DNA from: Xestospongia bergquistia
Lineage: Eukaryota; Porifera; Demospongiae; Haplosclerida; Petrosiidae
Direction of reading: 5' to 3'
NCBI GenBank assembly: GCA_963965975.1
Contig: OZ014412.1
Location: 5,582,501 to 5,646,500, forward strand
Length of the DNA stretch: 64,000 nucleotides
A program made the translations under genes and the position numbers. This document shows, piece by piece, positions 7,762 to 63,032 of the stretch (position 1 is its first letter; every line of letters begins with the position of its first letter). The notes beneath the pieces are model-generated. The model ran no database searches. It was given only the letters and a program-made list of their open reading frames with translations, and was not told the DNA's origin.

Positions 7762-10284
7762 TTACATGTCTGGTGTCTTTCTTGAGTTACTCAACTCATA
7801 TTCAATATATGTAGCAGTGTTAAGCTAGATAGATAGATGAGAAAGACAGAAAGATAAAAAGCAAAAGAGATATATATTGCAGTGACCCTACATAACTTTA
7901 AGTTTTTAAAAATCAGTTTAGGACAAATAAAATAATTCTTTATGTCATTGTATCCATAGCAACACTAGTAATCAGTTAGTTGGTATAATAGCTCATATCA
8001 ATATACTATGACTAATAAACTCAGTGTAGTTAGATCAGTAAAGATTAAATCTAGTACAGCTGCATAATCCCTCCATATTAATACATGTAATGAAATATAG
8101 GAAGATGCAATGGAATAGAATGGACATTGAAAACCTTTTGTGTTCTCTTAGATATGAATAATGATAAGTACTAATACTCTCTCTAGCATGATTTTGAGTA
8201 GGAGGAGACACCAGCCCTTGGTACCTCTTGGTTCCTACACCTATGATGTATATCTCTTAGTACCATACATAGTTCATGAATACTAGTGTATATGTTATTA
8301 CAAATCACTTACCAATTTCTTATGACTATTGTTACTATCACTGTAAATGATAATAAGTACATTATGTTAGTAACATTATGTATTGTTATTTTTTTGACTT
8401 ACGTCTTTCCTATAGAAAATATCAAATATTATAACCTCATATAATAAATTATACTCTCCTCTCACCTCTTATTTTAATGATGGCAACTACTAACGTTAAA
8501 ACAATAACAATTGAAACAATCATAACAAAAGCAACAATATGCTGATAAGTGATATGACCTTTGAAAGAAATATAGTTATAATTTATTAGTTATCTCACTT
8601 ACATCTTTCAGATATTTCTGTTAATGGAGGACTTGTTGGAATAACTATAGTAACAAAAGTAGTTATGTTAGTATCAAAATAAGTGATTTTAAAACTCTTT
8701 ATTTTTAAGGTACACTTCATATTTACCTACGTCTGTCAAAGGTCCTAATCCTACTGCAAATAAATTAAGGGGAACTAAATTAATAGTGCAAGTAGAACCC
8801 AGTGTAGCTCCAGTGATAATGGCGCATAGGGGTAGGAAGATAGTAGGGATTAGGGGGGCTAAAATGTTATCAATAGTAATAACTGTTCCATGAGCAGGGG
8901 GTTGCATTCCCAGAAGTTTTTAATTTGAAAACTTGTAAAATTATGTTAAATGATAACAGATGATTATGACTGAATTAAAGAAATGACATATATGTACATG
9001 ACCTAATAAAATATGTTAATAATGTCCAAAATAGTTTACACGTCTCTTGTTGCTGGTTACAAAATCCTTTGCAATACTTATAAATTAATGATTATTTTTT
9101 TAAAAATAGAGTAACTTTACTTTGTTAACAATATTAGGGGGGCTAAGCCCCCCTTTAATCAACATTAGGGGGGCTAAAGCCCCCCTAGCCCCCCTGGTTC
9201 CTACCCCTATGTAATGGCGGTAGTAGTAGGAGCTGGCACAGTAATAGCAACTTTACTAATAGAGACATTATGAGCTACTAAAATTTCTCTCACATCAGTA
9301 CGACAATCAGAGAGAATTAACTATGTGACAAATAAACCATTTATACATACAATGCTATCATATTTACCATCCATTCTACAAATATATCAGCTGTACCATC
9401 ATCTTGAAAGTTGGTAACATTTGTTTTCACAATACGGACTCCACCAGGCCCTGTTACAGTGTAATGACCAATAATGCTAGTACTAATGTGAACAACTTAC
9501 AATCTATACTAAAACAACGAGTATAACTCTGTGGTCCACTCCTATCACCACCATCTACAGCTGCTACACTATAAGTATAAGGTCTACCTTGTTCTATGTC
9601 ATTGATGATAATATAAGTTAACATTGTATCTATTAGTTGGTAATCGAGGGGAGTGCTGAGATTAACACGATAGTAGTCAACACACATGTATGAATACCAT
9701 ATTGATGACCAAGAAATAACAACTGATGTAGTATTAAGAGCTAAATAAGACAATGAATGAGGACTACGACTGGGAGGATCTGTTGATAAAATAGACAAAT
9801 GTTTTACTAAGTATAGTTTTTTTAAATTACCTTTTATCACAATAGGACATTGTTTACTATTATGATCACTGTTATCATTCATATCTGTACATTCTACAGT
9901 GACTTTGTCATTATATTTAACTTCAGCAATAAAATCAAGTGTGAAGGCATTGTTGTCAGTTTTAGTGACATTAAAATATCTACCAACTCGTCTAACCTGT
10001 CCAACAGGATCATGTGGACGAAATACAGTAGCACCACTAACACTTTTACCAGTGATAGTGAATTTAGCTCGTGAACTATTTATTCTACAGTCATATTGTG
10101 TCAATATTCCAGGACAAGTTGCTTGACAAGAAAACCAGAGCACCTGAGAGTGAGCAGCAACTAAGGAAGAAATAGTCAGCCAATGACATTTAGTATAGTA
10201 ACTAATACACTTACTATATAGCAAAGCTAATTGTAAAACGACCAGTAAGAAGTGATTTGATCTTTTAGATACTACCATTATCAT
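7762..10284 (-). pseudogene. R2: Ig-like/FN3 receptor gene interrupted by a MITE
   Basis: Exons are 10215-10284 (signal peptide, ATG 10284), 9831-10160 (Ig-like, cysteines WFSCQATC, YDC, VECTD, QCPI), 9501-9779 (FN3-1 with ISW and the RSGPQS signature), 9368-9450 and 8727-9320 (FN3-2), 8603-8644 (short stalk), 8466-8558 (TM helix), 8403-8409 (7-nt microexon), 8313-8340, and 7762-7824 (tail ending TYIEYELSNSRKTPDM). The FN3-2 exon carries a 387-bp insertion at 8825-9211 with an 8-bp target duplication. As the DNA stands, translation reaches a stop at the insertion edge. Without the insertion and one target copy the exon lengths sum to 1194 nt, a multiple of three, so the lesion is recent and is the only visible break. 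Family function would be cell-surface recognition, by architecture only. Confidence 0.75.
8825..9211. mobile_element. hAT-like MITE, 387 bp, inside R2 exon 5
   Basis: The ends are inverted copies of CATAGGGGTAGGAA, and the flanks are an exact 8-bp duplication TAATGGCG (8817-8824 and 9212-9219), the target length of hAT transposons. Subterminal G6/C6-rich repeats (AGGGGGGCTAA) occur at both ends. There is no coding capacity. A decayed terminal fragment of similar sequence lies near 8205-8245. Confidence 0.85.
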
Positions 10285-10479
10285 CCAATGATGTTTGACT
10301 CATTTTCTATAGGTGGGGCTCAAGTTATCACATGATTAGCAGTTGAATTAAATTCATGATCGTAGCTAAGTAAGACTGTATAATAACAATAAATAACTTC
10401 TTTAGACTCAATCTTTACTTCACACTACATGACCAGGAACAGTGACAAGGTGGGAGTAAAACTTTAAAGATACACTATA

Positions 10480-10580
10480 TATGTAATACATGTATGTAGG
10501 ATACATGTATATGTACAAATATGGTATATACATGTACATGTATGTAGACTGTACTGTACATGTACTCCTCATTACATGTA
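10480..10580. repeat. Palindrome-rich ATGTACATGTA tract
   Basis: Repeated short self-complementary words (TACATGTA and relatives) in the spacer between R2 and the TRIM-like gene. The rest of 10285-11017 shows nothing recognisable. Confidence 0.5.
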
Positions 10581-11017
10581 CTGACACATTCCTCTCAGTA
10601 GATAACATTTCATTTTCACTAATCCATTCCATATCACATGTAGCCATGGTAACAAGGTATATCATACATCCTTATAATTATATTGATATATTGTCATATA
10701 ATACAATTGACCATTGAATATACCACAAGATAAAAATGTACCAGTCACCACGTCAATAATAAATTTAATTTTAATTTTAAACCAACACTAGTAACCATGA
10801 ACAATGGAAATCAGTTATTGTACAAGTATAATAGTAAAATATGATGAAACTATGTTTGTGAATGTTTCAGAAACATTTAATATCTTTTTCAAAATAATGT
10901 TACTTGTAGTGAAATGACATGTTAATGTGACATTTTCATAATTAGGTTTTTATCAACACAGCACTCCAATCCATTTGAGAGTGGTCTTTTGGTGGCTTCG
11001 TATTTTTCTAGAAAGTA

Positions 11018-60860: not shown

Positions 60861-61066
60861 TGCAATACTCCTGTATTTCGAATTCCAGAAGATTCCACAT
60901 GTTTAATCAAGATTCAAACTGTAAAATTGTCATTTGTAGATGTTGTTGGAATTAAATGATTTTAAATGGGCTTGATGACTATTGATAGAATGATAAACTT
61001 TTCAGTTAGAATATAATGTAGGCCTAGTCGTTACTTTATATTGTGTGGCTCACTATCATGTGTAGT

Positions 61067-61084
61067 ATTAGGGAGTGGTTTATT
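61067..61084 (+). promoter_or_regulatory. Conserved upstream block of R9
   Basis: ATTAGGGAGTGGTTTATT, identical to the R4 and R6 blocks, 13 bp before the ATG. Confidence 0.45.
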
Positions 61085-61097
61085 TTAAAATTTGAAA

Positions 61098-63032
61098 ATG
61101 TCAGCATTTCTGGTCATATTGTTAAGTGCTGTCTTTTTCTTTGTTCAAGGTATATCATTAGCCTAAGATATGTTATATAATATTTTATCTCAGTCATTCC
61201 AATTCACTCTCAAGTGGTGAGTTTTCCGTGTCTAACATTTTGTCCTGAGGTACCAGCTGAATATCACTGTGTGATAACTAGTGCAGTAGCACGATGGACA
61301 GTTAGTGGGAGTGTTAGTGGTGTCAATTCATTTGGTGCAGCTGATCCTATTGGACATACACTACCAATTGGTAGTTCTTTTACTGCCAATAAAACTGGTA
61401 GTAACTCTTTCAGTCTGAACTTTACTGCTAATGTTGTGTTTAACAACAGTGTGACTGTTGAATGCCGTGATCAAGTTGATAGTAATAGCAATACTAATAG
61501 TAGACAATGTACTATTGAGTTAGTAGGTAAGAGAGAAATAATGTTCTAATCAATAGCATCTTTGTCAACAGGTTCTCCCACTACTAGTCCTAGTTCACTG
61601 TCTTATACTGCTATTAGTTCTATATCAGTTACTATCTCTTGGTCACCATCTTCAGAACAATGTCTTGATTACTATAGTGTTACTGTTGCTAACCAGAACA
61701 CCAACCAACAAGAGAGATTTAATACAACATCTACATCTCTTACTATTAGTAACAGACTAGAAGGAGTACTATATAGTTATACTGTAGCAGTAGTAGATGG
61801 AGCTAACAGGAGTGGACCTCAGAGTAATAGTGGTTGTTTTAATTTAGATAGTAAGTTTTTAAGTTGTCATTTTAATTATTAATGATATTACACTTACAGC
61901 ACCTGAACAAGTCCCAGGTCTAACAGCAATGGCTACTGACTTTCCTGAAAACCTAACACAAGTTAATGCTACAGCTAATATATCAGTACAATGGATGGTA
62001 AGTGTTGTATAATGTTAATACATATATATTATGTGATATTAGCAACCTACCTCATCATGTCCTCGTCCTAATGTAATACAATATAGAGTAGTTCATAATG
62101 TCACAAACAATGACATTAATATAACTGTCATTGTACCAACTCCTACTACTACTCTCACTATCACTGGAGCTACACTGGGTTCTACTTACACTATAGAAAT
62201 ACAAGCTAGTAATATACTGGGATATGGACCAACTGCAATGACTAAGATATGTAAGTAGTGCAGTACAGTAGAGAGTAAATTAATTATAATATTCATTATT
62301 ATAGTTATACCTACATCTTCTCCACCTCCTGAACCTACTTCTTCATATTCCACTTTAGTTGTTCCAACTAGTCCACCACCACTTGTTACATCAAATACAC
62401 CAACACCAACAACAACATCACCACCACCAACATCTAAAGGAGGTAAATTAGTTAAATTAATTAGGCAGTGGAAATAAAGGTGAGTAATAGACTATTCAGT
62501 TCTACTTACTATTAATAAATAATAATGGTTAGTAATACTTCCAGCAGTTACATTATTAGTATCATATATAAATAATGTTTGTTGGGATTATCCACTGATA
62601 TAGCTCATCTTCACATTCTTTTATTAAATCCATCAACTAAATGTTTACCATTGTTTTGTATATAGCAAAACATACATCAACATCTGTTACTATGTATAAC
62701 TGCATTATTTATAACATGTATATATACTACTTTTTTAATATATTCATGATGTAAACATAACGCAACTCTTTTAACTTCTAGATATCTCCTGCTCCTCCAC
62801 AACTACTATAGCAGTAGCAGTTACATTTCTCCTGACAGCTATATTCTCATCAATATTAACACTAGTACTAACATTACTGTTTGTTTATGTGTACATCAAA
62901 AAAAGTGGATTGAGTAGAAAAGATCCAGTCCAACCAGTTGAACAGGATATGTATGAAGTGGTACATAATTCAGGTGATATTAGTCCAGTACATCTTACTA
63001 CTAACCCAGCTTATGGACCTGTTGGGCAGTAA
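61098..63032 (+). CDS. R9: Ig-like/FN3/FN3 transmembrane receptor, NPxY tail
   Basis: Exons are 61098-61149 (signal peptide, MSAFLVILLSAVFFFVQ), 61194-61526 (Ig-like), 61572-61850 (FN3-1), 61900-61997 and 62043-62250 (FN3-2), 62305-62442 (Pro/Ser/Thr stalk) and 62782-63032 (TM and tail), giving 452 aa. It is the cleanest model for the family: every junction is GT-AG and phases close. The Ig-like exon has SFPC and VECRD cysteines, ARW and N-glycosylation sites (ANKT, FNNS). The stalk exon is nearly identical to that of R3, but the TM/tail is the NPAY type. The tail has DMYEVV in place of VVYEEV, so the ITIM-like motif is weakened, and NPAYGPVGQ is kept. Confidence 0.85.

Follow-up and report, generated by a model that had tools for sequence, protein, structure and literature searches.

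The stretch of DNA analysed here (the window; 64,000 nucleotides, C2:5,582,501-5,646,500) belongs to a single assembly of 146 Mb in 21 contigs and harbours a tandem array of receptor-like genes, which extends from position 7762, the last stop-codon base of the first gene on the minus strand, to position 63032, that of the last gene. The array was delineated by exon-by-exon tblastn searches with the exons of the last gene, g61, as queries, followed by splice-site models and a domain map; all gene models are predicted and rest on splice consensus and paralogue comparison, and genome-wide match counts are lower bounds throughout. Seven models are intact, namely g19m on the minus strand and g21, g25, g33, g43, g51 and g61 on the plus strand. 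The usual order of parts is a signal peptide, a first domain of approximately 112 residues with five conserved cysteines, an FN3 domain (FN3-1), a further FN3-like domain divided between two exons (FN3-2, the second exon being FN3-2b), a Ser/Thr/Pro stalk, a transmembrane (TM) segment and a cytoplasmic tail with tyrosine motifs, an anatomy by which the predicted products would be surface receptors. FN3-1 scores above the Pfam fn3 cut-off of 25 bits in g61 (35.9), g21 (32.4) and the divergent member g10m (26.4). Introns of the first models are in phase 1, save a phase-0 intron within the second FN3, and the exon junctions of the six genes that share a tail follow AG/GT with matching phases, the stalk exons having been picked by the AG/GT and phase rule itself. 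The array is not a product of chance: among the intact genes, and with the query gene itself excluded, complete exons for the first domain, FN3-1, FN3-2b and TM/tail have matches at E-values from 4e-28 to 8e-60, and the phases agree at AG/GT junctions. A preliminary description had proposed such an array between these positions, which the tblastn searches, the splice-site models and the domain map uphold. In place of its at least nine related genes, the models give seven that are intact, and two more (g10m and g54) are broken; of the common architecture that it described, the signal peptide, FN3 domains, stalk, TM segment and tyrosine tail are retained, but not the assignment of the first domain to Ig, and g33 lacks the second FN3.

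The six intact genes on the plus strand carry the same type of tail (tail A), which combines YEEV or YEVV with NPAY. These are g21 (20944..22760), g25 (24731..26560) and g51 (50726..52555), each with seven exons and the motifs VVYEEV and NPAY; g43 (42771..44608), likewise with seven exons, VVYEEV and NPAY, and with a different signal-peptide exon; g33 (33395..34882), with five exons, no second FN3 and the motifs DVYEEV and NPAY; and g61 (61098..63032), with seven exons, DMYEVV and NPAY. An earlier g33 model with a second stalk exon contained a stop and was discarded. Three flank genes share tail A, and NPAY is present in 9/9 of the resulting models, with YEVV as the variant of g61 and YEEV in the others. 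YEEV corresponds to an SH2 site of the Src type, and NPxY to a site for PTB binding or uptake. The seventh intact gene, g19m (14629..19541, minus strand), has ten exons in a model that includes an inferred exon of 7 bp and a last intron of 3 kb, and joins an ectodomain of the array type to a tail of 106 residues (tail B) with three motifs (LTYAEV, VQYSDL and VEYSSV) resembling the immunoreceptor tyrosine-based inhibitory motif (ITIM), for which the consensus [SILV]xYxx[ILV] was used. Among 20,000 shuffles of tail B, 2 equalled its three ITIM-like motifs and 17 its four YxxPhi sites. Two other matches to the ITIM consensus, in g61 and f5494m, fall in extracellular parts and were not counted. 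The contention that two types of signalling tail are joined to one ectodomain type is thus borne out by g19m as compared with the six tail A genes, and g10m and its two flank relatives possess, by eye, yet another tail.

Comparison exon by exon reveals that neighbouring genes are mosaic. The first-domain exon of g19m is nearest to those of g21 and g25 (95.2% identity to each), while intron 3 and the first FN3-2 exon of the same gene are 100% identical to g61, from which its first-domain exon differs most (78.9% vs 93.7-100% for the other exons). In the case of g43, the first FN3-2 exon equals those of g25 and g51 (100%), the next FN3-2 exon is 99.5% identical to g21 and the first-domain exon is nearest to g61 (89.5%, vs 81.9% to g21). 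MaxChi analysis of nine genes provided 232 of 252 triplets with enough informative sites, and with 1,000 permutations 111/232 reached the permutation floor (p ~0.001) and 190/232 were below 0.05, p values that are uncorrected and derive from triplets sharing sequences. Trees of single exons group the genes differently from one another. On a larger scale, the block with g21 and g25 (21045-27219) recurs as the block with g43 and g51 (42870-53261), in pieces of 94.0, 96.4 and 99.8% identity. The mosaic nature of neighbours, which had been noticed before from the sequence alone, rests accordingly on both the block identities and MaxChi, and the ectodomains are kept alike by gene conversion. This is a fast-changing family, in which similar outer parts are joined to different tails under ongoing exchange and decay.

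Selection was assessed by pooled pairwise ratios of non-synonymous to synonymous substitution (dN/dS) in 10 genes (9 for FN3-2 and the tail), excluding g10m, its two relatives and a copy at 5.739 Mb; conversion among paralogues weakens such tests. The ratio was 0.75 for the first-domain exon (bootstrap 95% interval 0.50-1.13), 0.54 for FN3-1 (0.30-1.00), 0.42 for the first and 0.78 (0.50-1.30) for the second FN3-2 exon and 0.59 (0.38-0.92) for the exon encoding the TM segment and tail (E7), which shows that the tail is under constraint. The expectation of diversifying selection on the first-domain exon was not borne out, as its interval demonstrates neither purifying nor diversifying selection. 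Purely descriptively and without a significance test, the proportion of non-synonymous differences (pN) is highest in first-domain windows starting at codons 41-51, where it amounts to 0.22-0.30 with 0.17-0.24 for synonymous differences (pS).

With respect to the first domain, which had been called Ig-like, Pfam retrieved Ig families for none of eight window members (0/8) at E-values up to 10, a range in which the HMMER filters discard most matches above ~0.1; the first domain of one member matched a bacterial antifreeze repeat at E 0.14. Two profile searches of the PDB yielded three chains each up to E 10, no Ig chain among them, and hhalign of the first domain with six I-set domains from the same genome gave a probability of 0.9%. 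FN3 as an alternative identity was rejected at an hhalign probability of 0.2%. Two structures were predicted with AlphaFold2, both all-beta and of moderate confidence: one reached a confidence score (pLDDT) of 72.4 with five discordant models, and one for the divergent member g10m displayed nine strands at a pLDDT of 74.5 with five concordant models. A fold-database search, a check that the preliminary description had proposed, was run with Foldseek on this moderately confident g10m model and returned 0/1467 matches at E <= 0.001. Its best 50 of 1467 rows contain 45 influenza haemagglutinin chains and no Ig domain, the haemagglutinin rows having probabilities of 0.87-0.99, E-values of 0.012-0.055, TM-scores of 0.40-0.46 and root-mean-square deviations of 4.7-8.0 A. 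At such a fit the result is no evidence of kinship and hints, for the modelled structure, at a sandwich other than Ig; the order of the nine strands would also fit a V-type Ig domain. An Ig identity is therefore unsupported by Pfam, PDB profiles and hhalign and does not appear among the best 50 Foldseek rows. Judged by the models the domain is probably beta-rich, and it may possibly represent a strongly diverged Ig domain or an undescribed family. With 53 full-length stop-free copies found in one search and no family found, this N-terminal domain would merit a solved structure.

Among the intact genes lie decayed and inverted copies, in agreement with the preliminary description, which had counted more than a dozen relics. 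Outside the intact genes and g10m, and with g54 included, 34 exon fragments in 11 clusters were detected (E < 1e-3, fragments merged at gaps under 700 bp), with inverted fragments on the minus strand at 29276, 37553, 39389, 41984 and 55283-55826. The gene g54 (53877..54852, plus strand) has a frameshift in its first-domain exon and retains first domain and TM/tail in pieces. Relic clusters occupy 26970..33106 (first-domain, FN3 and TM/tail fragments, one inverted) and 36129..42207 (fragments on both strands), and an inverted relic stands with a plus-strand FN3 fragment at 55078..56284. The divergent g10m (7762..10284, minus strand, with a putative start codon near 10284), the first domain of which is 44% identical to that of g61 and the tail of which includes, by eye, LNTATYIEYELSN, has its FN3-2 exon split by an element of 387 bp (8825..9211) with perfect terminal inverted repeats of 14 bp, CATAGGGGTAGGAA, and a target duplication of 8 bp, CGCCATTA, marks by which we take it to be hAT-like.

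Further insertions and unrelated genes are present within the array. Relative to position 23218 of the first block, the second copy of the duplicated block holds a 3.7-kb insert (45066-48791) with open frames on both strands; no transposon identity was found for it, since its ends have no inverted repeat of at least 12 bp, three of its frames had no Pfam match and a fourth had one that stayed below threshold. The same block contains a 0.4-kb insert (49280-49698) with inverted-repeat-like ends, ACCGTAAGGGTA and TACCCTTACGGT. Between g54 with the inverted relic cluster and g61, retrotransposon-like frames on the minus strand (56645-60643) encode reverse transcriptase, RNase H, an integrase core and CCHC zinc knuckles, and a TRIM-like gene in two overlapping frames with RING, B-box and filamin domains is located between g10m and g19m (11158-12710, minus strand).

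The array is part of a larger assemblage on the same contig. All 28 genome matches of the g61 first-domain exon are on C2, 25 of them at 5.485-5.739 Mb (17 inside the window) and three at 6.10-6.16 Mb, and all 31 matches of tail A are at C2:5.483-5.708 Mb. The three distant copies display, by eye, the same order of parts, and a query derived from one of them gave 80 matches: 54 at C2:5.92-6.33 Mb, 9 at 2.81-2.93 Mb, 8 at 5.48-5.76 Mb, 7 elsewhere on C2 and 2 on C3. The family thus covers C2:5.48-6.33 Mb as a minimum and has a satellite at 2.81-2.93 Mb, the part from 5.745 to 6.098 Mb being known through matches alone. Two kinds of tail, interspersed with each other, occur in the distant subfamilies, a long one with multiple tyrosines (20/20 matches on C2) and a short one (63/65 on C2, 2 on C1). 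When a tail was assigned to a domain exon if located within 4 kb downstream, the 41 full stop-free domain exons at C2 5.90-6.33 and 2.81-2.93 Mb were followed by the short tail in 22 cases, by the long tail in 13 and by neither in 6.

Other gene families border on the array. The neighbour gene at 1431-5390 (minus strand), which has repeated inserts in its N-terminal domain, an FN3 and an end rich in Ser/Thr, is a member of a different tandem family (36/36 matches at C2:5.33-5.59 Mb); its first domain resembles that of the array by eye (cysteine, RW, VTCKD and SCT) and was not detected by the array profile. In the region of this family, at C2:5.51-5.54 Mb (L020-L022, minus strand), a further kind of tail occurs in three copies, with NIAYGHV and, near the end, VVYDN or VYDDI, and tails of the NIAYGHV/VVYDNV type give weak matches to the tail A profile. 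At 7043-7429 (plus strand) lies an open frame that starts hydrophobic and ends rich in tyrosines (AVYEV, IVYDEA, ISYCKV and HQYDNI); it has no Pfam match and is perhaps the tail exon of another receptor. Downstream, at C2:5.65-5.745 Mb (L027-L034, L029), genes that combine I-set Ig domains with an NPSY or NPIYDEV tail stand among array relics; these intervening genes, mapped in the region with 5 seeds, are another gene type than the array. Dense clusters of I-set exons are present on other contigs, for example at C5:0.2-1.14 Mb and C7:0.94-1.34 Mb (of 1740 candidates, 150 were scored, every one of which matched), and clustering of Ig superfamily genes as such is therefore common in this genome. 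Two clusters of the cathepsin family were considered as possible silicateins; the first is an ordinary cathepsin L with the site CGSCWAF, and the second has papain-like exons with no readable active site.

We favour at about even odds (probability roughly 0.5) the reading that the locus is a complex of paired-type recognition receptors within an extensive germline family whose members are single-pass surface receptors. In its favour are the g19m ectodomain, which is similar to those of the tail A genes and carries another tail, the MaxChi result, the three ITIM-like motifs of tail B, NPAY in all tail A models, the confinement to C2 of the first-domain and tail A matches, and the short and long tails in two other regions of C2. 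In such a complex, the first domain would bind a variable ligand at the cell surface, upon which kinases would phosphorylate the tail tyrosines. Tail A, through YEEV or YEVV and NPAY, could then recruit SH2 and PTB proteins for a positive signal or uptake, and tail B, through its three ITIM-like motifs, could recruit SHP-type phosphatases and restrain the response, so that the tails would give opposing or graded output. Through duplication and conversion, outer parts and tails would keep being combined anew, as expected where receptors have to follow changing ligands of self or microbial origin.

Several observations weigh against a paired-type complex. The genome search for tail B found a single intact copy, besides a weak match that contains a stop, and the first tyrosine of tail A (YEEV) fits the full ITIM consensus in 4/9 tail A models. 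Inspection by eye of the nine tail A models found no immunoreceptor tyrosine-based activation motif (ITAM), as no second YxxL/I stands at ITAM spacing, nor did the TM segments of tail A genes show a charged residue; an activating role of tail A is for these reasons putative. Of the six tyrosine motifs in the long tail of the distant subfamilies none (0/6, by eye) fits the strict ITIM consensus, the first domain is without an assigned fold, and no exon of the array genes has a pooled pairwise dN/dS significantly above 1.

The same features can be read in other ways. The genes might serve the innate recognition of microbes or symbionts, an arms race having diversified them, and have no role in grafting, which we consider possible, if tentative: flux in copy number, decay and conversion would be typical of such families, and the CEACAM and Siglec paired receptors are interpreted in this way in the excerpted text of two sources (PMC5112662, PMC5701461), but significant positive selection was not found. 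An allorecognition complex with polymorphic determinants of fusion and rejection like Hydractinia Alr1/Alr2, perhaps with like-with-like binding of the first domain, appears more doubtful. The layout of clustered full-length genes and pseudogenes of single-pass proteins is like that described in the available part of PMC11067881, and the first-domain exon is the most divergent coding block, as seen for g19m and g61; against this stand the lack of a significant excess of amino-acid changes and a first domain for which an Ig identity is unsupported. A term search of the main text of a graft transcriptome of the sponge Amphimedon (PMC5450542) finds 'immunoglobulin', 'fibronectin' and 'receptor' absent, which neither helps nor excludes allorecognition.

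Rather unlikely, in our judgement, are adhesion or developmental receptors without a role in recognition, the copies of which would owe their spread to nothing but drift and conversion. Adhesion proteins often have FN3 stalks, and the pooled dN/dS is below 1 in every exon, with the constraint on the tail exon; a family of developmental receptors, on the other hand, would not usually be so broad, turn over so heavily or join one ectodomain type to different tails. That some copies are haplotypic or collapsed duplicates arising from assembly is suggested by the high identity of the two blocks, and we regard it as very improbable, as the blocks are separated by ~15 kb with intact g33 and relics, the second block holds the 3.7- and 0.4-kb insertions and g43 is a mosaic with a first-domain exon closer to g61 than to g21. 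The paired-type reading can also be extended to the speculative and on balance unlikely proposal of an allorecognition or immunity complex of at least 0.85 Mb, in which paired receptors were invented independently in an invertebrate: an N-terminal domain without known family would be joined repeatedly, by conversion and exon exchange, to short tails of the YxxV/NPxY type and to long or ITIM tails, and one region would provide trigger and brake for the same ligands.

Should the lineage be a sponge or another early-branching one, the array would offer a concrete candidate for a locus of self/non-self recognition and would point to more than one origin for the joining of shared outer parts to different signalling tails; the exact genes are now supplied for genotyping individuals of known graft compatibility. 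In the titles and abstract openings of the literature searched, no such complex is described in sponges. The aggregation-factor genes of sponges, which the accessible portion of PMC5450542 presents as proposed self/non-self molecules, encode components of extracellular proteoglycan complexes according to an extract of PMC11999971, unlike the array genes, which as tyrosine-tailed receptors are set apart from them by description, not by sequence.

The resemblance to the Hydractinia Alr complex pointed out in the preliminary description concerns organisation and holds at that level. In the part of PMC11067881 available, the Hydractinia allorecognition complex (ARC) comprises a few clusters in one chromosomal region, in which full-length genes stand beside pseudogenes, the reference genome possessing 19 further full-length genes and 44 gene models taken as pseudogenes, and the Alr proteins are assigned to the Ig superfamily through AlphaFold. 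The array shares with it clustered full-length genes for single-pass receptors mixed with pseudogenes; in contrast to the Alr ectodomains, an Ig identity of its first domain is unsupported, and what stands out in the array are its FN3 domains and the pair of tails found on one ectodomain type. The likeness is drawn at the level of organisation. Vertebrate paired receptors, such as CEACAM1/CEACAM3 (PMC5112662) and Siglec-11/-16, in which conversion keeps the ectodomains of opposing receptors alike (PMC5701461), have in the excerpts of these sources similar outer parts, different tails and conversion that preserves the likeness of the outer parts. The array matches this arrangement, with g19m and its three ITIM matches as the putative inhibitory-type member; unlike in vertebrates, an ITAM is missing from the partner tail A and its TM segments showed no charged residue, and the likeness is one of arrangement. 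By analogy, the vertebrate paired receptor would offer the closest functional model for this locus and the Hydractinia ARC the closest organisational one.

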